From contig JAIUPL010000016.1 of assembly GCA_020160935.1 (NCBI GenBank), positions 62,001 through 126,000 of the forward strand: a DNA stretch of 64,000 nucleotides. Reading direction: 5' to 3'. Positions 5,601-56,267 of the stretch are shown piece by piece (positions within the stretch are counted from its first letter, which is position 1; each line of letters starts with the position of its first letter). This stretch comes from Bacteroidota bacterium (GTDB taxonomy: Bacteria > Bacteroidota > Bacteroidia > Chitinophagales > Saprospiraceae). The position numbers and the translations under genes are program-made. The notes below the pieces were generated by a model. The model did no database searches and had not been told where the DNA came from. It worked only from the letters and a program-made list of their open reading frames with translations.

Positions 5601-5895
5601 CCTGATCAGCCTGTTTTTCAATTGCCTGCAAGCGGGAGTACGCAAAGACGAGGCTTTACGACAGGCCAAACTTCAATTCCTGGATACTGTTTCGCAGGAT
5701 GAAGCCCATCCGGTGTTTTGGGCGGCTGCTATTGCCCATGGTGATATGAAAGCCATGGATTTCCCTCAAAAACACCGGTGGATGTGGTGGGGTTTTGGTG
5801 TTTTGGTGTTTTTGTGTTTTAGTGTTTTTGTGTTTTTGAGGGCTTCGCGCGTAGCATTGCCAATAGTAAAGTCCACAAAAACACCAAAACACTAA
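2668..5895 (+). CDS. TPR-CHAT caspase-like peptidase, membrane-anchored
   Basis: A 1075-residue protein starting at GTG 2668, with a signal peptide (RILLPATLFLSLLLLSG), then about eleven TPR repeats of the kinesin-light-chain/TPR_10 type (about 30-450, many with NNLGNCY), a charged helical linker (about 480-660), and a CHAT domain (about 680-1020). The CHAT catalytic pair is visible: His889 in LSTHGQ and Cys936 in LSACET. A final hydrophobic segment (about 1037-1055) would anchor it in the inner membrane with the catalytic part outside. CHAT is the caspase-HetF-associated clan CD peptidase family. It is divergent from the sigma/anti-sigma operon, and cleavage of the anti-sigma factor's periplasmic domain is an attractive but unproven role. 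The C-terminal helix is encoded by inverted-repeat DNA. Confidence 0.9.
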   Translation: MKRILLPATLFLSLLLLSGQQRDSLSTVRLLHESRAAFETADYDQALEKAQIALGQMDEKSAALGDCLLLLADIFLEKGEYDAAQQQYSLALETFQKKGKQSAQTALALNGLGECLSKKNHCEQADSYYRLALRIRLQLFGEMHPSVADAYNNLANCMVQKGQYIDALALHQKTLEIRQKALPTGHPDLATSHNNLGNCYLLTGNYQEALKHFETALHIRQKAFGADHPKTAQVLNNLGNCYAAMGLRGEAIRYYEAALEVRRSRFGSSHPGVATALENIGDLHFDNGDYIAALDVFREAYNIQQNVHPEGGVTVATLRQKMGLCYQYEGNYDEALRLQLDALQVFSEAMGPLHPEMAGIFNNLGNCYNGQKDYARAIEYYRQAEKVYNAAGQSPNPDVALLYNNLGAAWLEMGDASAALEHFRKAEKTLRSTAPGHPDLCLTLKNQALALEQMGDESAALSTFQLALRDQETNDPVNQVEVLRDYGAMLCRRGMRDHDTATLQKAVEILEQALGFADSLRIQLTAPASRQRWLEKLYPVYTSALEASFRLWQQSGDPAMLESAFQRAEQSRSLQLLESLHKEKAERIAGVPDSLLEKERLLGEQLNLNEKNRLSWLSAGDTEKARAAASAVAETRTQLSTLVQEIERNYPDYYRLKYSIRTADVPAIRRQLLEERRQGLVEYFLTDSMLFVFILTPDTFQGLRIPYDFPLDNWVSDFRNSIQAYPGASGKAAERLSAVYADRAFRIFQTVVAPVQKIVQLPGNLIIIPDGALSYLPFEALLSEAPAQPQQFKRHHYLLRDYRIQYGYSATQLLDLQATPVATAPHTLLAVAPDFSRSPFQLKPLQYNRKEAAEVCRLLDGDLLDRDQATVAAFLEKAGDYQVLLLSTHGQASSMAGDYSYLAFSASADSTAPSFLYVRDLYLQRLPAELVVLSACETSVGENRLGEGVISLAKGFFHAGARSIVATLWSVDDAKNARLISLFFNCLQAGVRKDEALRQAKLQFLDTVSQDEAHPVFWAAAIAHGDMKAMDFPQKHRWMWWGFGVLVFLCFSVFVFLRASRVALPIVKSTKTPKH

Positions 5896-5908
5896 AACAC
5901 CAAAACAC
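5798..5908. repeat. Inverted repeat of GTGTTTTG words inside the CHAT 3' end
   Basis: The left arm (5798-5832) and right arm (5874-5908) are 35 bases each and complementary at 33 positions. Both are built from GTGTTTTG/GTGTTTTT words. The left arm encodes the valine/phenylalanine/leucine transmembrane helix of the CHAT protein, and its TAA stop (5893-5895) lies in the right arm. The stop of the convergent gene is at 5911. The hairpin therefore serves both 3' ends, yet lies almost wholly within coding sequence. Confidence 0.9.
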
Positions 5909-5910
5909 TT

Positions 5911-6975
5911 TTAATTCCTTCCCCGGCGGCCACCACCGCCGTTACCGCCGCCGCCTCTGGCCTTGGTAGAGGATTTTTCGCGCTTCACTTTTTCACCTCC
6001 ATTGCGACCATTAACGGTAGTGGAGGATTTTTCCTTGTGCGCTTTGCCTCCATTTCGGCCATTGACCGTAGTGGAAGATTGTTCTCTTTCCACACTTCTG
6101 CCTTTACGGCCATTGACGGTTGTCGAGGTTTTTTCATGCTCGATACTTCTGCCATTGCGGCCATTAACCGTGGTGGTTTTGGTGGTTTTGCTATAGCGAC
6201 CGCGGCCATTGGTTGCCACATGTGTAGTAGTGCGGGTATGCACCACGGTGGAATGGCGACGGTGCGGCGTATACACCCGGTGTGCATGCACGACGCGGTG
6301 AGTAGTTACCACGTGGTAGTGTACATGATATGGGCGGAACCGCGGATAAAATACGCGCCACGGACGCGGGCGGAACGGCTGCCACCAGCCCGGGTAGTAG
6401 CCCCAGCGCCAGGGCGAAACGTAGACCACATATGCTGGGCGGTAAATAAAGCGCACGGGCGACCACAACCACACATTTACCACGATGGCATCGGGCGCCA
6501 GGTGAACAGCAGGTCCGCCGCGGCCTTTGGGCGCATCGACTTCTTCGTCGGAAGGCTCTACTAATACCTGCTCGCCGAACACGTCTTCATCGCCGACAAT
6601 CTGCAGGATGGCGCTTTCCGCACCGGTTTTTTCAATTTCAATAACGGCAATATCCTGCGATTCTGATTCGCTGACAGGTGTTTGCAGTACGATCGCATGC
6701 ACGTCTCCGTCCATTTCGTCGACTACCCGGATATAATCGATCTTGCCATCATCGTTGAGATCGAGGTTGTTGGCAGGGTTGTCTTCTTCGTTGAGGCGTT
6801 TTTCAAAATCTTCCAGTGAAGCGGATTGCTTAAACAAATCCAGCGCCGCTTCGAGGCTGAAGTTGTCGCCTGCGAGGCCTGTGCTGTCTGCTTCAGTGCT
6901 GTCTTGCGCCCATGCCGGGAAGGCCAATATCGAAGCAAGGCCCAGTGGCAGGATGAATTTCAGTTGTAATTTCAT
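5911..6975 (-). CDS. Secreted protein with TTVNGRNG C-terminal repeats
   Basis: A 354-residue exported protein with signal peptide MKLQLKFILPLGLASILAFP and an AWAQ cleavage region. Residues 35-140 form an acidic domain with an EF-hand-like loop, DLNDDGKIDY, which may bind calcium. Residues 160-240 are very rich in aromatic, Arg, Pro and His residues (WRWGYYPGWW, YHVHYHVV). The tail holds four near-identical 17-18 residue units beginning TTVNGRNGR, then a Gly/Arg-rich end. Related proteins of unknown function are common in Bacteroidota. The basic repetitive tail could bind nucleic acid, polysaccharide or cell wall. It is convergent with the CHAT gene. Confidence 0.75.
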   Translation of the reverse strand: MKLQLKFILPLGLASILAFPAWAQDSTEADSTGLAGDNFSLEAALDLFKQSASLEDFEKRLNEEDNPANNLDLNDDGKIDYIRVVDEMDGDVHAIVLQTPVSESESQDIAVIEIEKTGAESAILQIVGDEDVFGEQVLVEPSDEEVDAPKGRGGPAVHLAPDAIVVNVWLWSPVRFIYRPAYVVYVSPWRWGYYPGWWQPFRPRPWRVFYPRFRPYHVHYHVVTTHRVVHAHRVYTPHRRHSTVVHTRTTTHVATNGRGRYSKTTKTTTVNGRNGRSIEHEKTSTTVNGRKGRSVEREQSSTTVNGRNGGKAHKEKSSTTVNGRNGGEKVKREKSSTKARGGGGNGGGGRRGRN

Positions 6976-7103
6976 GGTACAAACGATTTTAAAGTGGGTG
7001 GGTAAAGTCGGTTTGGTAGTTCTGACGAAATTACAAACGAGAAGTTTAATCGGAGCGCAAGCCAGACAGTGATTTTAATAAAATTTTAAATGACTATCAA
7101 CCA

Positions 7104-7541
7104 TCAGTTTCCGAGAGGTGTATCGCGGTCTTGCACTTTTTTCTTTTTCTTCTTTTCTTTCTTGCCTCCTTCCAGTCTGAATCTGAAAGGCAAGGTATAA
7201 CTCGTTTTGGCAGGCCCGGTGGCTGTGGTACCAGGTTTCCAGTCGGGCATGAGTTTCACTACACGAACGGCTTCTTCTCCACAACCGCCGCCGATGTCCC
7301 TGATGATCGCAATGTCGCTGATTTTCCCCTGCTCATTCACTACAAAAGAAACAACCACAACGCCCTGAATATCCTTGGCGCGCGCCTCGGCCGGGTATTC
7401 AATATTGTACGCAATAAATTTAAACATAGCCGCTTCTCCTTCCGGAAATTCCGGTTTCGTCAGGAGTGGTAGCGGCTCATCAATCTGTGCAAAAACCCGC
7501 GCGGAAGAAAAAAGAATCAATACAAACAGGATGTTTCTCAT
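7104..7541 (-). CDS. TonB C-terminal-domain protein, secreted
   Basis: A protein of 145 residues. The start is placed at 7541 because it gives a signal peptide (MRNILFVLILFSSARVFAQ). The body, from PEFPEGEAAMFKFI to YTLPFRFRLE, is a TonB carboxy-terminal domain of the kind found alone in many Bacteroidota proteins, with the typical GVVVVSFVVNEQGKISD segment. There is no N-terminal membrane helix of the sort energy-transducing TonB proteins use. It probably does not couple ExbB/ExbD to transporters and may bind peptidoglycan or a partner instead. The tail is a run of lysines (KKEKKKKKK). It is divergent from the permease gene at 7698. Confidence 0.8.
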   Translation of the reverse strand: MRNILFVLILFSSARVFAQIDEPLPLLTKPEFPEGEAAMFKFIAYNIEYPAEARAKDIQGVVVVSFVVNEQGKISDIAIIRDIGGGCGEEAVRVVKLMPDWKPGTTATGPAKTSYTLPFRFRLEGGKKEKKKKKKVQDRDTPLGN

Positions 7542-7697
7542 GGGGAATGGTTTTAAATAAATGAGGAATAAAAGTCGAAACAAATATCCATGTGGACGAT
7601 TTTGGGAGCGTTTTTTTTAGAATGGCCTTTGGGAACGCTTTTTTATTGGTAACATTACCCTGAAAATCAACGAAGACCGAAAGAGCATGTTTTCCAC

Positions 7698-8767: not shown

Positions 8768-9985
8768 ATGCTGGAAAACGTTACCGCTTACCAGGTGCTT
8801 TTTTGTGTTTGCGCCCTCATCATCGTTTCTTACCTTTTTTCTGTATTACATCGCCTGACACGTATTCCTTCCGTGCTGATGTTGCTCGGACTGGGTATTG
8901 CATTGAAACAAATTTCTGTATGGTTCGGCGCAACACTGCCCGTACCGGGTGCGCTGGTTGAGTTTCTGGGCACCATCGGCCTGATCATGATTGTGCTCGA
9001 AGCCGGTCTAGACCTGACGATTACAAAAGGGCACCAAAAACTGATTCGCAATTCGTTCTTTTCCGCTTTGGTCATTTTTGTGCTGTCGGCGCTCTGTGTA
9101 TCGGGTATTCTGCACTACTGGTATCCCGAACAGCCATTTGTCAACTGTGTGGTATATGCCATTCCATTAAGCATCATCAGTAGCGCCATCGTGCTTCCGA
9201 GCGTACACCATCTGAGCGACGAAAAGAAGGAGTTTCTGATCTATGAGGCGTCGATTTCGGATATCCTGGGCATCATGGTTTTTAATTTTTTTACCACCGA
9301 CGAGGTCATCACCACCCAATCGGCCGGGTGGTTTTTCAGCAGCCTGTTTCTGGCATTGCTCATCTCGGCTGTCGTGTGTTTTGGCTTGATGCTGTTGCTG
9401 GTGAGAAGCCGAATCAACGAGCGTTTTTTCCTGATGTTTTCGGTGTTGATCGTCATTTATGTGGGTGGGAAAATGCTGCATATACCGTCGCTCATTACCA
9501 TCCTGATGTTCGGACTGGTGGTGAACAACTGGGAACTGATCAATTCCTCCTTTGCACAGCGCTTTTTCAACCTGGAAAAGGTGCAGGATACGAGTCGTTT
9601 CCTGAAAAGCATCACCGGTGAATCGTCATTTCTGATCCGTACATTTTTCTTCGTCATTTTCGGATACAACATCGACCTCGGCTTTTTTCAGAACCACACA
9701 GTCCTCCTCATAGGCGGCGCCATCGTGGCGGCACTGCTGGCGATGCGCTTTATTTACCTGCGCATTTTGCATAGTTATCACCTGCTGCCTGAATTGTTTT
9801 ACATCCCGCGCGGACTGATTACGATTCTGCTGTTTTATAAAATTCCCGATTTCCGCAAACTGGAAGGCTTCGACGAAGGTGTGCTGTTTTTTGTGATCCT
9901 GGCAACCGCCCTCATCCTGATGTTGGGTTCGCTGCTGTATCGGGACCGGCCGAAGGAATATGAGTCGGGAACGGAAATAGAATGA
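8768..9985 (+). CDS. Cation:proton antiporter (Na+/H+ exchanger family)
   Basis: A 405-residue polytopic protein with 11-12 predicted membrane helices, fitting the CPA/Na_H_exchanger fold. Examples are the early LGLGIALKQ segment after HRLTRIPSVLMLL, the conserved GLIMIVLEAGLDLTI segment near residue 75, and a long helix AIPLSIISSAIVLPSV. It lacks a C-terminal regulatory TrkA domain and ends soon after the last helix. It would exchange Na+ or K+ for protons at the inner membrane. It follows the AI-2E permease and its stop codon forms the left foot of the hairpin at 10 kb. Confidence 0.85.
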   Translation: MLENVTAYQVLFCVCALIIVSYLFSVLHRLTRIPSVLMLLGLGIALKQISVWFGATLPVPGALVEFLGTIGLIMIVLEAGLDLTITKGHQKLIRNSFFSALVIFVLSALCVSGILHYWYPEQPFVNCVVYAIPLSIISSAIVLPSVHHLSDEKKEFLIYEASISDILGIMVFNFFTTDEVITTQSAGWFFSSLFLALLISAVVCFGLMLLLVRSRINERFFLMFSVLIVIYVGGKMLHIPSLITILMFGLVVNNWELINSSFAQRFFNLEKVQDTSRFLKSITGESSFLIRTFFFVIFGYNIDLGFFQNHTVLLIGGAIVAALLAMRFIYLRILHSYHLLPELFYIPRGLITILLFYKIPDFRKLEGFDEGVLFFVILATALILMLGSLLYRDRPKEYESGTEIE

Positions 9986-10129
9986 TGAGGTGTGAGGTGT
10001 GAGTTATGAGTTATGAGTTATGAGTTATGAGTTATGAGTTATACGCACGTTGCTATCGGCTACTCTATAAACAAGGCCAAGAGTACAGCACAATAACTCA
10101 TAACTCATACCTCATACCTCATAACTCTA
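9983..10129. repeat. Stop-to-stop inverted repeat of GAGTTATGAG words
   Basis: Six or more copies of GAGTTATGAG-like words (9985-10040) face their complements (10091-10128, CTCATAACTCATACC words) across a loop containing CGCACGTTGCTATCGG. The TGA of the antiporter (9983-9985) sits at the left foot and the TAG of the convergent glycosyltransferase (10127-10129) at the right foot. This is a diverged member of the family at 22906 and 46055, with the same central stem region but weaker pairing. A bidirectional terminator is the likely role. Confidence 0.9.
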
Positions 10130-12196: not shown

Positions 12197-12487
12197 GGCG
12201 GATGGGTTTTCGTTATTTGCCGGCAAATATAACCGGAAGTTGGAAGTGGGTATGCAAGAGGGATTGATCTGCGGAAATTTTGAATTGGGGCGGGTGGCCG
12301 CCAGGCCACCAAAAATCAGTTCAAATCCACGTCATCCGTTTCATCCGTGTTCCCATCCCTCTACGTGGGGCGTAGCCGAACCAATCCCACGCTCCAGAAA
12401 ACTTATGTTTTGATAAAATACAGAAGCACAACCCGGAAAACCCATAGAATTTCTCATTTTTACCACCACATTCACCCGGCCAAATCC

Positions 12488-12994: not shown

Positions 12995-13004
12995 GGGGGA
13001 TAGG

Positions 13005-13160
13005 GTTGATGAGGTTGATAAGTGTTGATGAGGGTTGATAAAGGTTGATGAGGGTTGATATTCATCGGCTCGATGAAGAGAAAAACAATCATACTCGAGC
13101 CGATGAATATCAACCCTCATCAACCTTTATCAACCCTCATCAACACTATCAACCTCATCA
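13005..13160. repeat. Inverted repeat of GGTTGATGAG words with ~65-bp arms
   Basis: Tandem GGTTGATGAG and GGTTGATAA words (13005-13071) face an almost exact reverse complement (13097-13160, ATCAACCCTCATCAACC words) across a ~25-base A-rich loop. It starts about 10 bases after the GNAT stop, ahead of the co-directional DEAD-box gene. This would be a strong terminator hairpin separating two genes on the same strand. The remaining bases to 13301 hold no other gene. A possible promoter-like TTTG-rich stretch lies at 13204-13229. Confidence 0.92.
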
Positions 13161-13301
13161 CCCCTCCCATCGGCTTTTTTTTCATCCGCCCCGGCTGTTG
13201 GCATTTGTGGCCAAATATATCGACCTTTGCCATCTCAATTACATCTGTATGCAGGACTTAGTCGTTCATGCAGACCTTTAGTATCAAATAAAATACCTGT
13301 T

Positions 13302-22000: not shown

Positions 22001-22619
22001 CTATCTCCGCTCCCGCGGCCAGGAAACGCTCAAGGAAAAACCGCTGGCCCGCTGCGAAAACCAGGGCTACATCCACTACAACAAGGGCTCGGCCGTCATG
22101 TACTACCTCAAGGAAATGATCGGCGAAGAACGTGTCAATGCCGGGCTGCGGAATTTCCTGGAAAAATATCGCTACAAAAACCCGCCCTACCCTACCAGTA
22201 TGGACGCCGTGCAGGCTTTTGCCGCCCAAACGCCCGATTCGCTGCAATACATCATCCAGGATTTGTTCTGGGACATTACCCTGTTTGAAAACCGCACGCA
22301 GTCGGCCATCGTCAAAGACCTTGGCAACAACCGCTGGGAAATTACCATCCAAACGGAAAGCCGCAAACTCAAGGCCGACGAATACGGCAAGGAAACGGAA
22401 GTACCCGTAAACGACTGGATGGAAATCGGCGCTTTTGCCAAGCCCGAAGGCGATAAAAAATATGGAAAAACGCTGTACCGCCAGCGCGTGAAAATCAACA
22501 AAAAGGACAACACCTTTACGTTTACAGTCGATGAAAAACCCTTTGAGGCGGGAATTGATCCGTTCCGGCTGCTGGTGGATCGGGAGCCGAAGGATAATGT
22601 GAGGGAAACGAAAGAGTGA
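19014..22619 (+). CDS. ABC-2 permease fused to M1-type zinc aminopeptidase
   Basis: A 1201-residue fusion. The ATG at 19014 is preferred over a TTG 33 bases upstream that overlaps an operator. Residues 1-280 and 330-620 are two sets of six membrane helices of the ABC-2 permease type. From about 650 on is a gluzincin/M1-like peptidase, with His942, Glu943 and His946 in HEMGH, the third ligand at Glu966 in TETFAQYSA, and a substrate-side motif PYSEAIGFI. The peptidase would lie in the periplasm. Fusions of this kind are frequent in Bacteroidota, usually beside an ABC ATPase. Here the neighbouring ATPase is broken, so the permease half needs another ATPase or is idle. The stop lies at the start of a repeat. 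Confidence 0.9.
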   Translation: MFSTFFQFEIKSWLRSPMPWIFMFVFALISFSASVSDDVSIGGSYGNVWKNAPFVAQNWYAVFSVISLLLVVAFLKGAAIRDFENRTDQIIFASPVGKAAYYFGHFCGALVVALIPMFGISLGIWLGASLGPAFGWMDAERFGPMEVTGHINAYLVTVIPNMIFAGGVLYAVAALTRSATYSYIAGVGLLVGYIVSGTFMQDIQNEEIAALLDPFGIRPFSLVTKYWTVDDKNHHSVGLLEPMILTNRLIWMGVGLAVLVAGYFKFNFSERKQTGKKGKKTIEPADDEAYGLKQLGELPRVSPASGLGTAWSQLWSQFRTDFKGIIKSIGFILLALLGLLNCIPNFKYATEGYGTSNLPITYTMVDMVRGSFYLYLMAILTYFTGALVWKERTAKVNEIYDALPTRNWTGYVAKYFTVLSTLFLLVVVAIIAAIIAQTLQGYDRYELGVYVRELLVFDMLGFAFMIALFMFIHVLSPNMYLGFFLCVIVVAVNGFIWGTLDISSNMVKLDGTPGYTVSDMYGYAPYVSGLVWFNSYWMLFAVLLAVAAICLWPRGKESGIEQRLSLAGQEWKNYRWVGAGAFLVWLATAGFTFYNTQILNPYIGSDEQEKRMVRYEKDYKKYEGWAQPRIYDVKYDIRIFPETRRYEAEGQMWVRNLHQRPLDSLLVQIPSKGDFTFDNQRLQLLLDDSTLYLRFYKISPALAPGDSMLLTYKTVYAAKGFENKLSNNSITQNGTFFNNYDIAPSFGYSANGELTDKNKRKKNGLPEKSRMPALDTANLAARSNQYLSIDADWVHVETTISTSADQIAIAPGSLISEKTEGDRHIFHYILDHKAWNFYSFLSARYAVARERKDSINYEVYYHPDHARNVPRMLKAMQKSVEYYTTHFGPYYHKQCRVIEFPRYADFAQAFPGTMPYSEAIGFIEDFQQEKDDIDMVFYVVAHEMGHQWWAHQECGAYMQGSEMTTETFAQYSALMVMEHEYGRDIMRKFLGYETDRYLRSRGQETLKEKPLARCENQGYIHYNKGSAVMYYLKEMIGEERVNAGLRNFLEKYRYKNPPYPTSMDAVQAFAAQTPDSLQYIIQDLFWDITLFENRTQSAIVKDLGNNRWEITIQTESRKLKADEYGKETEVPVNDWMEIGAFAKPEGDKKYGKTLYRQRVKINKKDNTFTFTVDEKPFEAGIDPFRLLVDREPKDNVRETKE

Positions 22620-22645
22620 GTTATGAGTTATGAGTTATGAGTTAT
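22616..22645. repeat. GAGTTATGAG array, outer left arm
   Basis: Three GAGTTATGAG words begin with the stop codon of the permease-peptidase gene. They pair with CTCATAACTCATAACTCA at 23251-23268, so the whole 22.6-23.3 kb block is one large inverted repeat interrupted by two MITE-like elements and an inner hairpin. Confidence 0.85.
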
Positions 22646-22905
22646 GCGAATCAAGGGTTGAAAGCCGCTATTGATTTTCAATGGATTACGAATCCAATTG
22701 AGGCTGTATCATAAGTTCAGTGCCTGAAATCAGATCAGATTTTTATTTTGTTTTTCATCCTGAAAACCTATGAGGTTTTTAAAACCTCATAGGTTTAGTC
22801 CTCAATAAAAATAAACTATGGTCATCTGCGTAAATTATACACTTGTGATACAGCCTCGTTTTTAGCCTGATAGTCAATTATTTATAAATCTAACTCTTGA
22901 TTCGC
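22646..22905. mobile_element. MITE-like element, copy A (260 bp)
   Basis: Ends are imperfect inverted repeats (GCGAATCAAGGGTT and AACTCTTGATTCGC). A second inverted pair lies inside (GAGGCTGTATCATAAG and TGTGATACAGCCTC), and the centre is the palindrome AAACCTATGAGG-TTTTTAAAA-CCTCATAGGTTT. It has no coding capacity. The element interrupts the GAGTTATGAG array and is closely related to copy B 91 bases further on. Nested inverted repeats without an open frame fit a miniature inverted-repeat transposable element or a repeat moved by an outside transposase. Confidence 0.85.
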
Positions 22906-22995
22906 ATGAGTTATGAGTTATGAGTTTTACTCACTTTGCTTTTGGCTGCTCTGATAAAGAAGCCGAAAGCAAAGTGAGTAAAACTCATAACTCAT
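22906..22995. repeat. Inner hairpin, TACTCACTTTGCTTTNGGCT family
   Basis: Left arm ATGAGTTTTACTCACTTTGC plus TTTTGGCT, right arm AGCCGAAAGCAAAGTGAGTA plus AAACTCATAACTCAT, with a loop of about 12 bases. It lies exactly between MITE copies A and B. The same stem occurs at 46055-46145 and, diverged, at 9983-10129. Confidence 0.9.
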
Positions 22996-23252
22996 GCGAA
23001 TCAAGAGTTGAAGTCGCTGTTGATTTTCAATGGATTACGAATCCAAAAGAGGCTGTATCATAAGTTCAGCACCTAAAATCAGGTCAGATTTTTATTTTGT
23101 TTTCATCCTCAAAACCTATGAGGTTTTTAAAACCTCATAGGTTTAGTGCTCGATAAAAATAAAATATGGTCATTTGTGTAAATTAGAAACTTATGATACA
23201 GCCTCATCTTTTGCCTGATGGTCAATTAGTTGTAAATCTAACCCTTGATTCT
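22996..23252. mobile_element. MITE-like element, copy B (257 bp)
   Basis: It is collinear with copy A throughout: the same GCGAATCAAG end, GATTTTCAATGGATTACGAA stretch, GAGGCTGTATCATAAG inner repeat, AAACCTATGAGG central palindrome and AACCCTTGATTCTC end, with scattered substitutions. Both copies are in the same orientation. A decayed relative is at 51461. Confidence 0.88.
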
Positions 23253-23265
23253 CATAACTCATAAC

Positions 23266-24015
23266 TCAAAAATCCATTATCTGAAAAAACGCCTCTTTCC
23301 GCCGCCGCGCCAGCGGAATGACCGACTTGTCGGTCATCAGCAGGCAATCGCCGTCGTCTTTGGCCAATTTCCGCACAAATTTGGTATTCACCATGTGCGA
23401 CTGATGTGCCCGGAAAAAAGGCGGTGAAGGAAGCATTTCTTCAAAGGTAGCGAGCGACTGGGCGGCCAGGTGCCGTTCGCCGTTTTCCAGAAAAACAAAA
23501 CTGTAGTTGCCCTGCGATTCGAGGTGCATGATTTCTGCTGTTTGCAGAAACAGCAGCCCATTGCCGGTACTCAGCGTAATGCGGTCGAACGAACGGGTTT
23601 GAGTGTGGTAGGCCAGTTGCTCCAGTTGTCGTTGGCGGGAATGCGTATCGGCGGGCTGGGTGGCACGATGAATGGCCGAAACCAGGTCTTCCGGGTCGAC
23701 GGGTTTCAGCAGATAATCGACAGCGCTGTAGCGGAAAGCACGAAGTGCAAATTCGTCGTGTGCCGTGGTAAAAATGACGCGAAAGTTGGGCTGCGGGAAT
23801 AAATTCAGCAAATCAAAACCCGTGCCGTCGCCCAGGTCCACGTCCAGCAGGATAATATCGGGTGCCGCAGATTTTATAAGCGTTTGGGCCTCGATTAGCG
23901 ACCCTGCTTCCCCTACAATGACTGCTTCCGGACAATCGCCTTCTACAAACATACGAAGCGCATCCCGACACAGGGCTTCGTCGTCGATGATACAGATTCG
24001 TGCAGCAGTTGGCAT
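23266..24015 (-). CDS. LytTR-family response regulator
   Basis: A 249-residue two-domain regulator. The ATG at 24015 is used because the receiver begins at once (ARICIIDDEALCRDAL). The phospho-acceptor is Asp58 in ILLDVDLGDG, and the conserved Lys is in YLLKPVDPEDL. The C-terminal LytTR DNA-binding domain (about 150-249) contains IMHLESQGNYSFVFL and FRAHQSHMVNTKFV. LytS/LytR systems of this class are the main Bacteroidota regulators without a classic HTH. No kinase is adjacent, and the nearest LytS-type kinase is at 31383, beyond two secreted-protein genes, so pairing is inferred. The stop codon is embedded in the repeat block at 23.27 kb. Confidence 0.9.
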   Translation of the reverse strand: MPTAARICIIDDEALCRDALRMFVEGDCPEAVIVGEAGSLIEAQTLIKSAAPDIILLDVDLGDGTGFDLLNLFPQPNFRVIFTTAHDEFALRAFRYSAVDYLLKPVDPEDLVSAIHRATQPADTHSRQRQLEQLAYHTQTRSFDRITLSTGNGLLFLQTAEIMHLESQGNYSFVFLENGERHLAAQSLATFEEMLPSPPFFRAHQSHMVNTKFVRKLAKDDGDCLLMTDKSVIPLARRRKEAFFQIMDF

Positions 24016-31091: not shown

Positions 31092-31143
31092 GTGCTGCTT
31101 TCAAATAACAAAATTCTTAGCAGCCTGAAACCGCCATGCCCCG

Positions 31144-31235
31144 CCTTGTCCTCCTGACGGGAACCGTCCGCTCTACGAGGGGACAATACGTTGATACGAG
31201 CCGTAGAGTGGACGGTTCCCGTCAGGAAGACAAGG
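31144..31235. terminator. 34-bp-arm hairpin upstream of the sensor kinase
   Basis: Arms 31144-31177 and 31202-31235 pair at all but two positions (one of them a G-T wobble) across a 24-base loop, with CTGACGGGAACCGTCC in the stem. It lies between the secreted-protein gene and the kinase gene. The rest of the 31092-31382 gap contains no gene, and the kinase promoter must lie after the hairpin. Confidence 0.85.
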
Positions 31236-31382
31236 GGAGCACGACAGCGTTTCTGGCTGCGAAAATCAAAGGAAATTTGCCTCAGTCTTTCCTGCAAAAA
31301 TTCAAATTGAGCCGTGTTCATCTCAAAACTCCCAAACTCCTCTTAGTTTTACCCAAGAAACGCGCCGACCACAACACGGCCT

Positions 31383-38641: not shown

Positions 38642-38672
38642 GATTTGACAACTTTTTGAAAGTTGTCAAATC
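38642..38672. terminator. Palindrome GATTTGACAAC-TTTTTGAAA type, copy 1
   Basis: Eleven-base arms (GATTTGACAAC and GTTGTCAAATC) surround TTTTTGAAA. The identical second copy starts 61 bases further on. They lie between the mpaB-like gene end and the metal-receptor gene, as terminators would. Confidence 0.8.
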
Positions 38673-38702
38673 TTCTCACCCGAACCTTTAAAAACATAGA
38701 TA

Positions 38703-38733
38703 GATTTGACAACTTTTTGAAAGTTGTCAAATC
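38703..38733. terminator. Palindrome GATTTGACAAC-TTTTTGAAA type, copy 2
   Basis: Identical to the copy at 38642, and ends two bases before the stop codon of the oxygenase gene (38736). Being this close to the stop matches the placement of other gene-end hairpins here. Confidence 0.85.
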
Positions 38734-39596: not shown

Positions 39597-39713
39597 ATTT
39601 CAAATTACTTTGAGATACAAAGTTAGTTGGCATACATGGATAATCCAACAGAACAGGTTGAATTTTCCAGGATATTTGAAAAAAGGTGGGAATTGAAAAT
39701 GAGTTTTTAAACG

Positions 39714-39829
39714 CGGAGTTTATTTAACCACAAAGGACACCAAGGTTTCACAAAGTTCACAAAGTAGTGATTATAAACCCTTTGTGAACTTTGTGAAACC
39801 TTGGTGTCCTTTGTGGTTAAATAACTCCG
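39714..39829. repeat. Hairpin with ~50-bp arms, ACCACAAAGGACACC words
   Basis: Left arm 39714-39764 and right arm 39780-39829 match perfectly except for one extra base, with a 15-base loop. The words (TTTAACCACAAAGGACACCA, GGTTTCACAAAGTTCACAAA) belong to a family met widely in bacterial intergenic DNA and recur in the tandem repeat at 34453. It lies 16 bases from the E2 stop codon and before the upstream region of the oxygenase gene. Confidence 0.92.
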
Positions 39830-39845
39830 TGGTTAAACCCGAAAA

Positions 39846-41435: not shown

Positions 41436-41518
41436 GCACAGAATCGTTATTTTACAAGGAAGAGTTTTGAGGCGGGCAAAGATGGGGATTTTTTTTCAAA
41501 AAATAGTCCAGTGTTGAT

Positions 41519-41653
41519 AGTCCTGAGTCGTAAGTCCTGAGTCCTGAGTCCGTAGAGTACACAATTGATGCTCTTGGGTTTCCCCTATTGGTGTGCCAAG
41601 GGCATCAATGTGTACTCTACGGACTCAGGACTCAGGACTTACGACTCAGGACT
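41519..41653. repeat. Hairpin with ~52-bp arms, GTCCTGAGTC words
   Basis: Left arm 41519-41571 and right arm 41602-41653 are complementary over their whole length with one bulged base, built from AGTCCTGAGTC and CCGTAGAGTACAC. The loop has a further CTTGG/CCAAG stem. The right foot touches the TAG stop of the PorE-like gene (41652-41654). The left foot is about 85 bases from the E2 start codon. Confidence 0.95.
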
Positions 41654-44048
41654 ATTTCCCATCTTGCCCAATCACCCGAAATTCCGTCCTGCGATTCAAC
41701 TGATATTCCTCTTCCGAGCAAGGCACATCGTCATTGCATTTATTGATGGGTTTTGTTTCGCCGTAGCCGCGGGCGACGAGGCGTTCGCGGGCGATGCCCT
41801 GTTCGGCAAGCCATTGCACCACGCGGTCGGCACGGCGCTGCGACAAGTCGAGGTTGTAATCAGCAGGGCCGCGGGCGTCGGTGTGAGAGGCGATTTCAAT
41901 GCGAATTTCGAGGTTATCCTGCAAGGTATGTAGCAGTTTTTGAAGGTCGGGCAAGGACTCATCGCGGAAATTTGCCTCATTAAAATCGTAGTACAAATTG
42001 ACCAGAAAACCTTCCGAGCCGCGTTTCCACACAGGATGTTCGGGGGCGCTGGGCACCCCGTCGGCCAGGAGCACACCATTTTGCACTTCCATACCATTGC
42101 CGATGGAAAAAGTAGCCGGGCTGCCGTCGGCATTTTCATAAATACCCGATAACTCATTGTATTTCGGCCCGGTATGTGAAGCGGGCGTTTCCTGCTGACT
42201 GATGATAAAGCCATCGGCGTCGCGGTAGGGTTGCAGACTAAGGTTGGCTTTCAATACGGCCTTGTCGGTCGTGAGGCCTTTGGTACAAAAGCCATCCGCA
42301 GAATCGGTGATATAGCCTGCGCGTTCGGCTTTTACCTTGTAACAGCAATCGCGGTCGAGTTTGAATTTATAACGTCCGTCGGGGCCTGTGACGACCGGTT
42401 CTGCCATCAATTTGCCACAATCATTGACCATACTTACCCGCGCACCATCGGCCGGCATACCATCGGCCATGTCGAACACAATGCCTTGCAGGGTATAATT
42501 GCTTTGTTTTTGCACCAGCATTTCGAGGCGCAGCGGGAAATCGGAGGCAGCACCCGAGCAGCCTTTGATCTGGGCGCCTTCATAACCTTTTTTGGCAGCT
42601 GTAAAATCGGCGCAATCGGACGGGCGCATATCAAAAGAAATCTTGCCATCCGCGCCGGTGGTCATCGTCAGGCCCACCTGTGTGCTGCTCACCGTCACGC
42701 CGCTCACAGGCTGGCGTGTGCGTTGGTCGAGCACCACAATTTCCATCGGGGCGGCCGTTTTTTGAAACCCGTAAATATCGTCGCGACCCTGGCCGTCCTT
42801 TCTGTCGGAGGTAAAAAATCCCCAGGAAAGGTCAGGGCTGAATGTGATGGCAAAATCGTCGTGTGTGGAATTGACCGGCGCGCCCAGGTTGACCGGCAGG
42901 TTCCAGGCATTCATATCCTGCTGGGGCGTGGCGTAAAAAATATCGAGCCCGCCCAGCCCGAGGTGGCCATTGGAGGCAAAATACAAGCGGTCATTAGACG
43001 CCAGAAACGGAAAAATTTCATTGCCTTCCGTGTTGATCACCGGCCCCAGGTTGGCCGGGGGCGACCATTGACCATTTTTAAATGTAGTCACGTAGAGATC
43101 CATCCCACCATATCCTCCGGGCATATTGCTGGAAAAGTACAGGCGCCGACCATCGGCAGAAAGCGTAGGGTGCGCCACATGGTATTCATCGGAATTGAAA
43201 GGAAGGCCCTGTATGTCTTTCCAATCGTGCGAAGCCACATTCCAGTGTCCTACAAATATTTTGAGTTTCACAAGTCCGTCTTCGCTGCGGCCGGTTTTGC
43301 CATCAGCGTGGCTGTTTCGGGTAAAATAAATCGACTGTCCGTCGGCCGAAACGGCCACTGCGGCCTCATGGAAACGGGTATTGATGGAATTGGAATATTT
43401 CTTCGGATCTGAATAGGTAAAATTGCCGGGTTGAAGCCCGATGGGGGTAAAAACAACCTCATACAATTCGGAAAACGGGTTGCCGGTCCACAAACTGGTG
43501 CGTTTCACAATGCCGCCCTGGTCGCGGTCGCTGGCAAAAATCAGCGTATTGTCCACCAGGGCAGGGCTAAAATCGTCGTATGCCGAATTGAACGGCAGTC
43601 TTTGCACTGAATAAATATCCTGTCCTTTTTGCAGCAATTCTCCTTGCCGGTCGCAAGAAGCCGCCAGAAACTGCGCACGGGCATCGTCGGGGTTCTCCTG
43701 CAAATACGCAACAAACCAGGGTTTGGCCTGCTCGCATTTCCCGTTGGTTTGCAGTACCATGCCGTAATACAAGCGATGGATGGCCTTTGCCTGCGGGAGT
43801 TGCACCACTTTTGCGTACCATTCCTCGGCATGTACGGGGTCGTTCACCTTGCGGTAGCATTCGGCCAGATTCATCATGGCCTCCGGGTTGTTCTCCTTGT
43901 CCAGCACCTCCTGGTACAAGGTGATGGCGGTCAAGTAGTCCAGTTCCCGCATGGCATTGTCGGCGCGTGTCAGGCGCGATTGCAATCGGGCGCTGGCGGG
44001 GCACAACAGCAGCAAGAAAAAAATAATTTTGGCGGCAGTCGGATTCAT
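41652..44048 (-). CDS. PorE-like OmpA-family protein (TPR, propeller, CRD, OmpA)
   Basis: A 798-residue exported protein with a signal (IIFFLLLLCPASARLQ), TPR-like helices (about 20-140, NLAECYRKVNDPVHAEEWY), PD40/WD40-like propeller blades (about 160-440, HPTLSADGRRLYFSSNMPGG, then YGGMDLY), carboxypeptidase-regulatory domains (about 455-610), and a C-terminal OmpA domain (about 690-798) with HTDARGPADYNLDLSQRRAD and the peptidoglycan-binding NRRTEF. TPR-propeller-CRD-OmpA is the architecture of PorE of the type IX secretion machinery. It is encoded 15 bases after a porP/sprF gene. Many genomes have several such pairs, so this may serve one cargo group rather than the core machine. Confidence 0.88.
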   Translation of the reverse strand: MNPTAAKIIFFLLLLCPASARLQSRLTRADNAMRELDYLTAITLYQEVLDKENNPEAMMNLAECYRKVNDPVHAEEWYAKVVQLPQAKAIHRLYYGMVLQTNGKCEQAKPWFVAYLQENPDDARAQFLAASCDRQGELLQKGQDIYSVQRLPFNSAYDDFSPALVDNTLIFASDRDQGGIVKRTSLWTGNPFSELYEVVFTPIGLQPGNFTYSDPKKYSNSINTRFHEAAVAVSADGQSIYFTRNSHADGKTGRSEDGLVKLKIFVGHWNVASHDWKDIQGLPFNSDEYHVAHPTLSADGRRLYFSSNMPGGYGGMDLYVTTFKNGQWSPPANLGPVINTEGNEIFPFLASNDRLYFASNGHLGLGGLDIFYATPQQDMNAWNLPVNLGAPVNSTHDDFAITFSPDLSWGFFTSDRKDGQGRDDIYGFQKTAAPMEIVVLDQRTRQPVSGVTVSSTQVGLTMTTGADGKISFDMRPSDCADFTAAKKGYEGAQIKGCSGAASDFPLRLEMLVQKQSNYTLQGIVFDMADGMPADGARVSMVNDCGKLMAEPVVTGPDGRYKFKLDRDCCYKVKAERAGYITDSADGFCTKGLTTDKAVLKANLSLQPYRDADGFIISQQETPASHTGPKYNELSGIYENADGSPATFSIGNGMEVQNGVLLADGVPSAPEHPVWKRGSEGFLVNLYYDFNEANFRDESLPDLQKLLHTLQDNLEIRIEIASHTDARGPADYNLDLSQRRADRVVQWLAEQGIARERLVARGYGETKPINKCNDDVPCSEEEYQLNRRTEFRVIGQDGK

Positions 44049-46054: not shown

Positions 46055-46145
46055 AGTTATGAGTTATGAGTTATACTCACTTTGCTTTCGGTTACTCTAA
46101 TGAAGAAGCCGAAAGCAAAGTGAGTATAACTCATAACTCATAACT
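46055..46145. repeat. Hairpin with 37-bp perfect arms between MOSC gene and rho
   Basis: Arms 46055-46091 and 46109-46145 are fully complementary: AGTTATGAGTTATGAG, then TTATACTCACTTTGCTTTCGG, with a 17-base loop. The MOSC stop (46050-46052) and the rho stop (46151-46153) flank it. It is the cleanest member of the family also found at 22906 and 9983. Confidence 0.95.
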
Positions 46146-48642: not shown

Positions 48643-49920
48643 ATGCTCCAACTCAAGGTCATCAGAGAAGATAAGAAGCGCATTGTCAATGGTTTGCGCA
48701 AAAGAAACTGGACTGCGCAACAGGTAAAAATCATTGACGAGATCATCAAAAAAGATGACGAGCGCCGTGCCACCCAAAAAGAACTCGACGACACCCTGGC
48801 CGAACAAAATCGCCTCGCCAAACAAATCGGCGCCCTCATGGGCCAGGGCAAAAAAGACGAGGCCGAAGCCATGAAAACACAGGTGGCCAACCTTAAAGCA
48901 CTCACTAAAACGCTCGAAGAGCGCAGCGAAAGCATCCAGCAACAACTCGACAACATGCTCTACTCGGTGCCCAACTGCCCGCACAAGAGCGTGCCCAAAG
49001 GCAAAACGCCCGACGACAACAAGGTGGCCAAAGCCTGGAAGAAGCCCTTCCCTACCCTGCCGGAAAATGCGCTCCCACACTGGGAACTCGCCAAAAAATA
49101 CAACCTCTTCGATTTCGAACTGGGCGTAAAACTCACTGGCTCGGGCTTCCCGGTGTACCGCGGCAAAGGCGCCCGCCTGCAACGCGCCCTCATCCAGTTT
49201 TTCCTCGACGAAGCCGTGAAGGCCGGTTATGAAGAAATCCTGCCGCCGCTGCTCGTCAATGAAGACAGCGCCCGCGCTACCGGCCAACTTCCCGACAAGG
49301 AGGCCCAAATGTACAAGTGCGACGAAGATAACCTGTACCTCATCCCCACGGCCGAAGTGCCGGTAACCAACCTGGTGCGCGGCGAAATTATCCCACAAAA
49401 GGATCTGCCTGTCACCATGACCGCCTACACGCCCTGCTTCCGCCGCGAAGCCGGCGCCTGGGGTGCGCACGTGCGTGGCCTCAACCGCGTACACCAGTTC
49501 GATAAGGTGGAACTCGTGCGCATCGAACACCCCGACAACTCGTACAAGGCCCTCGAAGGTATGGTGCGCCACGTGGAAAAACTGATGAACAAACTTGAAC
49601 TGCCTTTCCGCATCCTGCTGCTTTGCGGCGGCGATATGGGCTTCAACTCGGCCAAAACATACGACTTCGAAGTGTGGTCGGGTGCACAGCAGCGCTGGCT
49701 CGAAGTGAGTTCGGTATCGTGCTTCGAAACTTTCCAGAGCAACCGCATGAAACTGCGTTTCCGCGACGCCGATGGCAAAATCGAACTGGCGCACACCCTC
49801 AATGGTTCGGCGCTGGCGCTGGCACGTATCGTGGCAGCCCTGCTCGAAAACAACCAGACGCCGGAAGGGATTACGATTCCGAAGGTGCTGCACAAATACA
49901 CGGGCTTTAAAATGATTTAA
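48643..49920 (+). CDS. serS: Seryl-tRNA synthetase
   Basis: A 425-residue class II synthetase. The N-terminal antiparallel coiled-coil arm (about 25-105) binds the long variable arm of tRNA-Ser. The catalytic domain shows the TPCFRREAGAWGAHVRGLNR motif 2 loop, followed by VHQFDKVE, and motif 3 NGSALALARIVAALLENNQ near residue 385. It charges tRNA-Ser (and tRNA-Sec if present) in the cytoplasm. The start MLQLKVIREDKKRIVNGL is typical. It is followed by an inverted-repeat block and murA on the same strand. Confidence 0.97.
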   Translation: MLQLKVIREDKKRIVNGLRKRNWTAQQVKIIDEIIKKDDERRATQKELDDTLAEQNRLAKQIGALMGQGKKDEAEAMKTQVANLKALTKTLEERSESIQQQLDNMLYSVPNCPHKSVPKGKTPDDNKVAKAWKKPFPTLPENALPHWELAKKYNLFDFELGVKLTGSGFPVYRGKGARLQRALIQFFLDEAVKAGYEEILPPLLVNEDSARATGQLPDKEAQMYKCDEDNLYLIPTAEVPVTNLVRGEIIPQKDLPVTMTAYTPCFRREAGAWGAHVRGLNRVHQFDKVELVRIEHPDNSYKALEGMVRHVEKLMNKLELPFRILLLCGGDMGFNSAKTYDFEVWSGAQQRWLEVSSVSCFETFQSNRMKLRFRDADGKIELAHTLNGSALALARIVAALLENNQTPEGITIPKVLHKYTGFKMI

Positions 49921-50046
49921 GATTTAAGATTACATGATTTGAGATTTTAGATTGCACGAGATGCCCTCCGTCAAAAAATCTAACATCATGTAATCTTAAA
50001 TCTTAAATCATGTAATCTTATATCTTAAATCAAAGAATCTTAAATC
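49918..50046. repeat. Inverted array of AAGATTTAAGATTACATGATT words
   Basis: Words GATTTAAGATTACATGATTT (49921-49953) face ATCATGTAATCTTAAATC words repeated about three times (49977-50046) across CACGAGATGCCCTCCGTC. It begins inside the serS stop codon and ends 6 bases before the murA ATG, filling the whole intergenic space. Confidence 0.92.
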
Positions 50047-53499: not shown

Positions 53500-53845
53500 A
53501 TTGATTACCAATCATTTACGATACTTGGAGGTTGGGGTACAATATGCGGATAGTCATTTTAATTTTTTTCATTGTAAACTTAATAAATATCCTACGCCTA
53601 CTCTTTCCGCTTTTCGGCATCCGCGTCCTACTTCTTTTGCAGGAGTTTCAGGTATTCCTCCTTACGTTGCTCATACCGGTAATTGAACAGCACAAAAATA
53701 CCGGCCATTCTCCCCTGAAAAAAGGAACCAAAAGTTGTATTTTCGGCGGATTTGGTTGTTTTTTGATGGGATGTGATACAAAATCATTTTCCTGGCGTTT
53801 ACATTTGCAAGCAATCACGTCGAAACCTTCATTTCTGTATCCTGA

Positions 53846-55686: not shown

Positions 55687-55718
55687 TTACTACTAACCTT
55701 CGCGTAACTACTAACCTT
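55687..55718. promoter_or_regulatory. Direct-repeat operator, ACTACTAACCTT x2
   Basis: ACTACTAACCTT occurs at 55689-55700 and again at 55707-55718, 18 bp apart, with TTAGTAAGC following. It covers the expected -33 region of the DoxX promoter, so binding would repress. The HxlR regulator next door is the natural binder. Confidence 0.7.
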
Positions 55719-55735
55719 TAGTAAGCAAATGTACA

Positions 55736-55743
55736 TAGGTTTG
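55736..55743 (+). promoter_or_regulatory. -7 box of the DoxX promoter
   Basis: TAGGTTTG fits TAnnTTTG and lies 24 bases before the ATG at 55768, just downstream of the operator. Confidence 0.55.
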
Positions 55744-55767
55744 CAGCGGATTTAAAAACAATCGATT

Positions 55768-56115
55768 ATGAAATTTACAAAAATTGCCACCATCGTGTTC
55801 ACTGTGCTTGCAGTAGGAATGGTCATCATGAGCGGCATCATGAAATTTGTCGCACCACCAGAAATGGCAGAGAAAATGTCTCAACTGGGTATCGGTTCTT
55901 ATCTCCCCATGCTGGGGCTGATGGAAATAACCTTTGCACTCCTGTATGCATGGTCGAAAACAATGCGCATTGGATTTGTGTTGTTGTCCTGTTATTTCGC
56001 CGGGGCGCTGGCTGTAGAATTAGCCCATGCACAACCTTTCAATGCCCTGCTTCCTATGGGACTGGTGTGGGTATCGGCGTTTTTGCGGGATCGGGAGGTG
56101 TTTGGGGTGGCTTGA
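55768..56115 (+). CDS. DoxX-like small membrane protein
   Basis: A 115-residue protein with four membrane helices (IATIVFTVLAVGMVIMSGIM, LGLMEITFALLYAW, RIGFVLLSCYFAGALAVELA, ALLPMGLVWVSAFL). This is the DoxX-like arrangement, including the polar KFVAPPEMAEKMSQLG loop after helix 1. Such proteins often sit under HxlR control and have been linked to thiol or oxidative stress. The divergent HxlR gene and shared operator support that here. Confidence 0.85.
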   Translation: MKFTKIATIVFTVLAVGMVIMSGIMKFVAPPEMAEKMSQLGIGSYLPMLGLMEITFALLYAWSKTMRIGFVLLSCYFAGALAVELAHAQPFNALLPMGLVWVSAFLRDREVFGVA

Positions 56116-56133
56116 ACAGGATAAAGGGTTTAT

Positions 56134-56267
56134 GAACAGGATTTTTAGGATAGAATAAGGATTAAAAGGATTCCGCCTGTGATGTACATATTTTTTTCAA
56201 TTTATTGAATTGTGACATCACAGGCGGAATCCTTTTAATCCTTATTCTATCCTAAAAAATCCTGTTC
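56134..56267. repeat. Hairpin with ~52-bp arms, GGATTAAAAGGATTCCGCC words
   Basis: Arms 56134-56185 and 56215-56267 match except for one extra T:A, and contain AACAGGATTTTTAGGATAG and GGATTCCGCCTGTGATGT. The 29-base loop has its own TTCAATTTATTGAA palindrome. It lies between the DoxX stop and the luciferase-like gene on the same strand. Confidence 0.95.

Follow-up and report, generated by a model that had tools for sequence, protein, structure and literature searches.

The closest known kind of element to the hairpins described here is the REP-type palindrome. REPs of the GTAG and CGTC superfamilies are dispersed high-copy palindromes located mostly between convergent or unidirectional gene pairs; where two genes converge they are reported close to both 3′ ends, and they often supply the stop codon (PMC3733652). 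Hairpins also occur at gene ends as intrinsic terminators, some of them serving convergent genes (PMC5381666), and single template-switch events are described which copy one arm of a hairpin into the other, leaving mirrored multi-base changes and perfect stems (PMC8794818, PMC8604942). Here we examined hairpins at gene ends in a window of 64,000 nucleotides, to which positions below refer unless a contig is named, and in the genome that contains it (G000). We consider, at a probability of roughly 60%, that they are lineage-amplified dispersed palindromic elements lying directly behind stop codons and shaped by three processes set out in the last section.

Hairpins in the window and in the genome

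The original prediction listed nine loci with inverted repeats in the window. All nine carry one, of 33–70 pairs and with arm identities of 93–100%. The first, at 5798..5908 (arms 5798–5832/5874–5908, GTGTTTTG vocabulary), lies between convergent ORFs 2668–5895 (+) and 5911–6975 (−), the + stop falling within the right arm. The hairpin at 9985..10127 (arms 10001–10035/10093–10127, left array starting at 9985) is built from the GAGTTAT vocabulary and separates a Na/H-exchanger-family gene (+) from the convergent 10127–12226 (−); at the orthologous position of G040, a close relative with flanks 87% identical, a AACAGGATT hairpin is present instead. At 13002..13165 a hairpin of GGTTGATGAG vocabulary (70/72 columns paired) is located 7 nt past the stop at 12994, and the G040 ortholog is without hairpin. 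The fourth locus, 22617..23268, is a composite gene-end region. The predicted inverted repeat is there, its outer GAGTTAT arms (22617–22646 and 23251–23268) about 600 bp apart; the compact hairpin is an interior GAGTTAT/ACTCACTTTGC structure at 22913–22995, accompanied by a repeat unit whose inverted ends are GAGGCTGTATCATAAGTT.

Downstream of a 2-oxoacid dehydrogenase acyltransferase gene (39846–41435, −), the hairpin at 39706..39837 uses the CTTTGTG vocabulary (56/59 columns paired). That at 41517..41655 combines AGTCCTGAGTC words with an inner module GTAGAGTACAC at the stop of 41652–44048 (−), and its apical stem is changed in both arms in G040. Between a MOSC-domain gene (+) and the convergent rho (−), 46055..46145 is fully paired (37/37) with GAGTTAT words and an inner stem ACTCACTTTGCTTTCGG; in G040 and G006 this inner stem has another sequence and is still paired. 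The GATTTAAGATT hairpin at 49913..50032 stands between a seryl-tRNA synthetase gene and an EPSP-synthase-family gene, which we take to be MurA, and G016 carries at this site a GCGGAT hairpin adjoining a GATTTAAGATT stretch. The last one, 56125..56275 (AACAGGATT/GGATTAAAAGG vocabulary, 59/62 columns paired), is found 9 nt past the stop of 55768–56115 (+). Two structures had escaped the original list: a less word-like hairpin at 31120..31260 (51/60 columns paired) and an inverted repeat at 38642..38733 (29/32).

A hairpin finder with uniform criteria (at least 20 pairs), run on 1.25 Mb of G000, returned 204 hairpins, where dinucleotide shuffling of the intergenic DNA left 0.4 per set. The host is an uncultured Saprospiraceae-like bacterium. 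According to gene calls from a simple hexamer caller, 72 hairpins are in convergent, 106 in tandem and 22 in divergent regions, two are coding and two have no region call. The median stem has 50 pairs, the longest 138. Hairpins occupy 70/104 convergent regions (counted from 40 nt upwards), 102/430 tandem and 22/155 divergent ones in G000, and 40/49, 56/172 and 14/62, respectively, in G040 on the same basis. The 72 convergent hairpins compare with a mean of 28 under random intergenic placement (200 draws, maximum 40). Placement relative to stops is not random either. As predicted, the feet often lie on or near stop codons, in part of both genes where these converge: among the 72 convergent hairpins, 55 place a foot no more than 15 nt from a stop and 34 do so for both stops, the median distance to the upstream stop in tandem regions is 7 nt, and an arm foot overlaps the stop at 51/250 gene ends. 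In their dispersed, extragenic, high-copy occurrence, and in their position near the 3′ ends of convergent and unidirectional gene pairs, the hairpins thus behave as REPs do.

Shared words, hairpin copies and orthologous gene ends

In the original prediction the arms were usually tandem copies of words of 7–12 bases, differing between loci. The arrays are real, with a dominant period of 7–8 (106/131 arrays); the locus specificity of the words had to be abandoned. About a dozen vocabularies each recur at many loci of G000. GAGTTAT is used at 3 of the 9 window loci, and the genome contains 191 matches to its 21-mer, overlapping ones included, while the 12-mer AGTCCTGAGTCC is present in 21/196 hairpins, ATGAGTTATGAG in 17, GTGTTTTGGTGT in 12 and GTTGATGAGGGT in 11. 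The words are therefore genome-wide vocabularies, and locus specificity resides in the exact arm. Of the 131 word arrays in G000 intergenic regions, 36 overlap no hairpin and may be precursors or remnants of hairpins. G035, from another family, has 215 word hits and no hairpin in the 30.7 kb examined, so that word arrays and hairpins can occur separately. Viral carriage was considered: in IMG/VR, the GAGTTAT 21-mer was present in 12 stretches and an AGTCC pattern in three, with a hairpin of 20 pairs in 5 of these 15.

Whole hairpins recur at other loci in either orientation: among 77 paralog pairs (greedy nearest pairs over a similarity threshold), 35 are inverted. Homology stops within 10 nt of the feet in 8/10 close paralog pairs, and alignments of hairpin loci showed by eye no clear case of target duplication. 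Template switching at gene ends followed by slippage, the origin first suggested, is an incomplete account, since whole hairpins also have copies at other loci.

Comparison with G040 gave 46 orthologous gene ends with a hairpin in both genomes. At 17 of them the arm score was below 0.2; 12 of these are clear vocabulary changes, and the other five (C14:204654, C14:206411, C14:212671, C17:6726 and C21:228061) have, judged by eye, a module or vocabulary in common with some hairpin of that region. The ortholog came first among G040 hairpins in 11/46 cases and among the first five in 20, and much of the ortholog similarity is thus ordinary descent; in 14 cases it fell below the 20th rank. The best paralog equalled or exceeded the ortholog in 37/46, a biased count of little weight in which about 200 hairpins compete with one ortholog. 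A hairpin position that is kept in a relative, often with a different sequence, suggests that arms are copied into each other and hairpins exchanged genome-wide.

Alternatively, these could be selfish REP- or MITE-type palindromes without any gene-end function, excluded elsewhere by promoters and coding sequence, or accumulating between convergent genes where supercoiling prevents their extrusion. REPs are indeed placed alike: at convergent pairs most lie no more than 20 bp from each of the two 3′ ends, and their frequent supply of stop codons (PMC3733652) recalls the stops overlapped by arm feet here. Copies in both orientations and a patchy occurrence across the genus agree with such elements, as does the convergent co-occupancy of G000 and G040, hardly above that expected from the marginals (21/27 versus 18.7). 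However, tandem co-occupancy is 21/70 versus 8.9 expected, partly through shared descent, and the convergent occupancies of G000 and G040 given above are high for elements without function. In G438 all 9 of 9 convergent regions carry a hairpin, in stretches selected near word hits. Densities per Mb (G016, 289; G006, 325; G438, 227) are possibly inflated, the stretches of these genomes and part of those of G040 having been chosen for matching hairpin- or word-bearing places; 80 kb from each of G007 and G009 (96% identical) yielded only 2 and 7 hairpins of 20 pairs, respectively, too few for comparison. We regard the purely selfish alternative as possible, on the unlikely side.

Agreement between the two arms

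The arms of a locus are its own. In 185 of 196 G000 hairpins the best match of an arm was its own partner, with a median arm score per length of 0.89 within the locus and 0.56 for the best other locus; in G040 the partner was best in 103 of 104. This is the opposite of what is expected from palindromes that spread and then mutated freely, where the two arms of a locus should have diverged no less than copies at different loci. The 77 paralog pairs differ by 261 mirrored and 339 one-arm changes, where 1.6 mirrored ones are expected; in 18 ortholog pairs, retained from the 46 loci by arms of at least 25 nt, and a cross-species score of at least 0.2 under a stricter aligner, the counts are 92 and 74, with about 0.4 mirrored expected. 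Both sets were picked for similarity. Orthologous and paralogous arms thus often change together instead of diverging independently, and the proposal that arms are corrected against each other or repeatedly remade withstood this comparison as well as that of placement. Mirrored changes are clustered in both sets, as expected of template-switch hairpins: adjacent mirrored columns number 49 in the paralog set (shuffled mean 21.5, maximum 33) and 24 in the ortholog set (14.8 and 22). They show no transition bias and are transversion-rich in the paralog set; the transition share of mirrored and one-arm changes did not differ significantly in the ortholog set (p = 0.28). Template switching can also invert the loop in place; orthologous loops were mostly too diverged for alignment, and the inverted paralog pairs are inverted as whole units.

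Could ordinary terminators produce such matching, through selection for RNA pairing and stepwise compensatory mutation, new ones arising as old ones decay? The position behind stops is as expected, and RNA folds predicted for five stretches at four loci are strong (−65 to −115 kcal/mol, z −16.2 to −20.5). Compensatory evolution is known in Bacillus cereus terminators, in which 68/76 AU-GC switches with a known intermediate passed via G-U (PMC5381666). Here, by contrast, when mismatches at tandem loci are read on the transcript strand, G-U is not favoured over A-C (78 against 105 and 38 against 47, 116 against 152 in total). The argument is weakened because any single mismatch may be tolerable in a very stable hairpin, and the A-C excess (p = 0.03) is a counterpoint to our own reading as well. 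The clustering and transversion richness of mirrored changes, stems of up to 138 pairs and whole-element copies at other loci also speak against it. Moreover, U-tracts (at least 5 T in the 8 nt past the foot) are present at only 5/144 convergent and 9/106 tandem foot ends in G000, and at 6/80 and 3/58 in G040. At least 5 A past the foot is commoner in G000 (14 convergent and 18 tandem ends). A search for canonical terminators in 20 kb of the window yielded 27 terminator-like motifs versus 28.2 in shuffles. That terminator selection accounts for the hairpins therefore seems doubtful to us.

In the absence of G-U preference and with mirrored changes clustered, arm matching points to DNA-level copying between arms, probably by template switching, beyond selection for RNA pairing alone. 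The mirrored differences may in part reflect hairpins assembled from different words and not later correction, and one-arm changes exceed mirrored ones in the paralog set, a counterpoint to arm copying.

Possible origins and relation to known systems

REP elements of the GTAG type are associated with RAYT transposases, and a RAYT-like (Y1) enzyme might move these hairpins. PF01797 has two matches in G000 and at least two in each of six word-rich relatives of the genus, but also in most others, and across 60 relatives the counts do not climb with word load (G000, 2; G006, 3; G023, 3; G438, 2; G016, 2; G015, 5; G441, 6; and, without word arrays, G020, 9; G436, 7; G437, 7). The Y1 gene on contig C42 of G000 has a palindrome of a separate kind some 130 nt away, the GCCCTGAAAGGGCG type, with only four exact motif copies in 1.25 Mb and, by eye, unlike every gene-end vocabulary. 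We consider RAYT mobilisation very improbable. Some compared genomes are metagenome assemblies, and an artefact of binning has a negligible chance given separately assembled genomes of several species with conserved gene neighbourhoods and differing hairpin sequences.

Amplified palindromes behind stop codons would be shaped, in our reading, as follows. First, copying of DNA between the two arms of a locus would carry base changes and blocks into both of them; the sequence pattern is observed, and the agent is most likely template switching as replication meets the hairpin, plus slippage in the words. The 5′ arms are richer in G than C (3397:1637) and in T than A (3459:2665), an asymmetry traced in PMC8794818 to template switching within a strand. 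Second, whole hairpins have copies at other gene ends in either orientation; the different vocabularies at orthologous gene ends suggest that an incoming hairpin can replace the resident one. Third, a hairpin of whatever sequence would be retained or tolerated behind genes because it forms a two-way barrier at transcript ends, halting or pausing read-through and shielding 3′ ends, chiefly between convergent genes. Such a putative barrier is argued from placement; a two-way terminator role is plausible, and pairing would matter while sequence would hardly do so. Searches for SbcD and PF01797 found no enzyme linked to the hairpins. Loss of the SbcD hairpin nuclease as their cause is unsupported: G000 has no match, but weak ones occur alike in the hairpin-rich G016 and G006 and in the hairpin-poor G007 and G009.

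More tentatively, the hairpins may be interchangeable, species-vocabulary palindromes copied among gene ends and kept near-perfect by replication-coupled arm copying. If so, gene ends keep their architecture, yet divergence at genus level is enough to rewrite its sequence. Compensatory change in stem halves is commonly taken to prove RNA function; hundreds of loci that co-vary without G-U preference imply that covariation can stem from DNA copying. Orthologous sites let hairpin birth, correction, transfer and loss be measured in this genome, which allows a direct test of how fast template switching proceeds at natural palindromes. The genome also raises the question of how the host ends transcripts where U-tracts are absent.

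The original prediction thus stands for the hairpins, their arm identity, their gene-end placement and the correction or remaking of arms, and falls for locus-specific words and for the novelty of the parts. Hairpin creation and arm homogenisation by template switching are in print (PMC8794818, PMC8604942), as are palindromes hugging stop codons, published for REPs (PMC3733652). A literature search returned no work on Saprospiraceae intergenic inverted repeats and no description of the combined features; what is new is length, scale, the vocabularies and replacement at conserved gene ends.

Compared with the terminators of PMC5381666, which have poly-U and switch mostly through G-U intermediates, the hairpins here have neither. 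The template-switch papers concern rRNA, microRNA genes and yeast coding genes; we propose the process for hundreds of loci in one bacterial genome, where the G-C/U-A asymmetry predicted by PMC8794818 is seen. The heptamer repeats of Beggiatoaceae, Cyanobacteria and Bacteroidetes (PMC4679880) are likewise intergenic arrays of 7-base words with patchy distribution, but consist of one word in direct repetition, apart from a single reported indirect repeat, and in the main genome studied lie mostly just upstream of start codons. Nematomorpha mitochondria also hold many long perfect inverted repeats in one lineage (PMC6649704), within coding sequence, unlike gene-end hairpins. REPs, finally, are units of 20–40 bp with a family consensus and tag (PMC3733652); the present hairpins are neither this short nor members of a few consensus families, as the low best score at other loci indicates. 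Their arms are tandem 7–8-mers with inner modules. Loci that draw on one vocabulary differ from each other, yet within each of them the two arms agree, and related species use different vocabularies at the same gene end.

Hairpins in the window, the genome and its relatives

Inverted repeats were present at all nine gene-end loci of the original prediction (9/9), as judged by repeat searches of the window, where a uniform finder detected 11 hairpins (inverted repeats of at least 20 pairs, with arms often made of tandem 7-8-nt words). RNA folding of five stretches from four loci gave energies of -65 to -115 kcal/mol and z-scores of -16.2 to -20.5. Elsewhere in the window, an Rfam DUF805b RNA match above the gathering score was found at 53595-53627 on the minus strand, in a surrounding stretch of low G+C (0.42).

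We then surveyed 1.25 Mb of the 5.84-Mb source genome (G000), comprising the whole of contigs C17, C21 and C23, C14 minus 2 kb, a 100-kb part of C25, and the window itself, which is C34:62001-126000; genes were predicted by a simple hexamer model. Hairpins with 20 or more pairs number 204 in this sample (median length 50 pairs, maximum 138; median arm identity 0.95), against 0.4 per set in dinucleotide-shuffled intergenic regions. Extrapolated to the whole genome, the sample count would give about 950. The main relative used for comparison, G040, includes Saprospiraceae MAG contig JAEUUT010000022.1, whose Rho is 95-96% identical to that encoded in the window. Its picture matches (113 hairpins in 575 kb; 40 of 49 convergent regions occupied), and in the relative G438 all 9 convergent regions were occupied in 119 kb chosen near word matches. 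Gene-end hairpins are a real, strong and widespread feature. Fourteen stretches (273 kb) fetched from other same-genus members contained 13 hairpins, in 8/22 convergent, 4/75 tandem and 0/38 divergent regions.

The word arrays have a period of 7 in 68 of 131 cases and of 8 in 38. The claim that words are locus-specific was not borne out: vocabularies are common to many loci, and inner modules such as GTAGAGTACAC are found again with several outer words. Vocabulary varies by species, the hairpins of four same-genus members (G008, G012, G021 and G022) using words other than those of the source genome. At window 1-216, 8-nt TCAACCCC/TCAACCCTC words are arrayed in about 25 copies; the repeat searches reported no inverted partner nearby. 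GAGTTAT array matches numbered 174 in G000, 154 in G006, 137 in G438 and 130 in G023, then 29 in G441 and 16 each in G015 and G016; among 36 same-genus relatives searched, 27 had none and 3 had one. G035, from another family of the order, has 215 matches, yet the 30.7 kb examined from it contained no hairpin. Among 395 sampled genomes, a GAGTTAT hairpin was detected in two distant Bacteroidota (G364 and G413) with a pattern limited to short spacers, which matched just two places in G000 and so misses most such hairpins.

Placement at gene ends

Among source-genome regions of at least 40 nt, 70/104 convergent, 102/430 tandem and 22/155 divergent regions were occupied, and 72 convergent hairpins were observed where random intergenic placement would give 28. 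Of the 106 hairpins in tandem regions, 87 are closer to the upstream stop than to the following start; the median distances of the foot (outer base of the arm) from these are 7 nt and 67.5 nt, respectively. The foot overlaps the stop codon at 51 of 250 hairpin-facing gene ends. No U-tract was found at the feet, and terminator motifs were not in excess. Placement and occupancy are compatible with a gene-end role. We infer that the hairpins could form a barrier there, and word this cautiously because repetitive extragenic palindromes (REPs) show the same placement, according to PMC3733652, and because convergent co-occupancy between G000 and G040 (21/27) hardly exceeds the 18.7 given by the marginals. 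REP-like placement might reflect intolerance of palindromes almost everywhere else. Tandem co-occupancy was 21/70 against 8.9 from the marginals, an excess that may be partly due to shared descent.

Agreement and change of the two arms

Arms match their own partner better than any other: arm score per length had a within-locus median of 0.89 versus 0.56 for the best other locus, and the partner was the best match at 185/196 loci in G000 and 103/104 in G040. Had palindromes spread and afterwards mutated without constraint, the reverse pattern would be expected; the arms are thus corrected or rebuilt at the locus itself, in support of the central inference of the original prediction.

Changes between related hairpins were mainly assessed by whether they affect both arms (mirrored) or one. 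The 18 ortholog pairs whose arms could be aligned yielded 92 mirrored and 74 one-arm changes, with about 0.4 mirrored changes expected from the one-arm rate; 77 paralog pairs gave 261 and 339, with 1.6 expected. Mirrored columns were clustered, with 49 adjacent pairs in paralogs (shuffled mean 21.5, maximum 33) and 24 in orthologs (mean 14.8, maximum 22). Mirrored changes in paralogs were poorer in transitions (117:144 versus 197:142 for one-arm changes, p = 0.0013); in orthologs the shares (43:49 versus 41:33) did not differ significantly (p = 0.28). Tandem loci, where it is known which strand is transcribed, held 116 G-U and 152 A-C mismatches in the two genomes together (p = 0.03). In B. 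cereus terminators, AU-GC switches whose intermediate is known passed through G-U in 68 of 76 cases (PMC5381666). Because of the mirrored excess, the clustering, the substitution pattern and the G-U and A-C counts, we read these sequence changes as probable arm-to-arm copying at the DNA level.

Orthologous gene ends were located in the G040 sequence covered for 137 of 689 source-genome intergenic regions (mean flank identity 87.2%). Sorted into convergent, tandem and divergent regions, both species have a hairpin at 21, 21 and 4 of these, only one species at 3, 8 and 2, and neither at 3, 41 and 34. Among the 46 shared sites, the cross-species arm score was below 0.2 at 17 and above 0.5 at 13. 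Inspection by eye of the 17 low-score sites identified 12 clear vocabulary changes, and a vocabulary or module in common with a hairpin of the region at the remaining 5. Words differ between G000 and G040 at the convergent end near 9985 (GAGTTAT versus AACAGGATT), at C17:11525 (GAGAGTG versus AGTCCTGAGTC) and at C17:13879 (GGTTGATGAG versus GGATTTAAAGGATT). At the MOSC/rho end, outer GAGTTAT words are kept in G000, G040 (left arm only) and G006, while the three inner stems are mutually unrelated, each being paired; at the SerRS end of G016, a GCGGAT hairpin adjoins a GATTTAAGATT stretch. The ortholog ranked best among the 113 G040 hairpins at 11 of the 46 sites, within the first five at 20 and beyond rank 20 at 14, a mixture of descent and probable replacement. 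Gene-end hairpins of ACGTCGGAAGCGTC vocabulary were also seen at L066/L067 of G008 and G024 (about 94% identical there), with blockwise arm differences between the species, yet arms paired within each.

Other sites are empty or half-empty in one species. C14:215366 has only left-arm words in G040 and a full hairpin in G000, and C14:270897 a one-sided AGTCC array in G000 and a hairpin in G040; at C17:110988 and C21:219353, convergent genes are separated by 10 or 41 nt in G040 and, in G000, by about 280-300 nt that include a hairpin. Such sites, taken from two species in which the steps cannot be ordered, are compatible alike with insertion, growth from one-sided arrays or deletion.

Spread, candidate agents and known systems

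Homology ended within 10 nt of the feet in 8 of 10 close paralog pairs, including two G040 elements well over 300 nt, and extended 22-24 nt further in the other two, which have word-rich arms. Relative orientation was inverted in 35 of 77 paralog pairs. Counts of Y1, a RAYT-like transposase (PF01797), did not correlate with hairpin load among the genomes compared, although every word-rich same-genus relative has at least 2 matches. The Y1 gene on contig C42 of G000 adjoins a palindrome of another kind, with four exact motif copies in 1.25 Mb. The presence of the hairpin nuclease SbcD likewise does not track hairpin load among these genomes. No SbcD (TIGR00619) match was obtained in the whole source genome, through true loss or an assembly gap, and at least a partial match was obtained in 18/18 same-genus relatives searched.

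Three further repeats were noted in the window. A 71 bp tandem duplication (34453-34613; 97% matches) contains CTTTGTG-type words found in hairpins. A 118 bp tandem duplication (57324-57545; 97% matches) contains a GCCCTGAAAGGGCG palindrome and may be a REP-like unit, because this palindrome resembles the one beside the Y1 gene on C42. At 22613-23268, a repeated unit of about 290 bp has GAGGCTGTATCATAAGTT inverted ends and sits between GAGTTAT arms on its outer sides, an arrangement that resembles a small insertion element inside a gene-end hairpin.

The mechanism had been proposed as undescribed. This does not hold for its parts, template switching and REP placement being already published; of their combination, the literature searched yielded no description. 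The 5' arms favour G over C (155/204) and T over A (143/204), the direction that intrastrand template switching yields according to Monttinen and Loytynoja (PMC8794818). As in concerted evolution, certain inner modules are repeated at several loci within a single species but were not found at the orthologs of other species.
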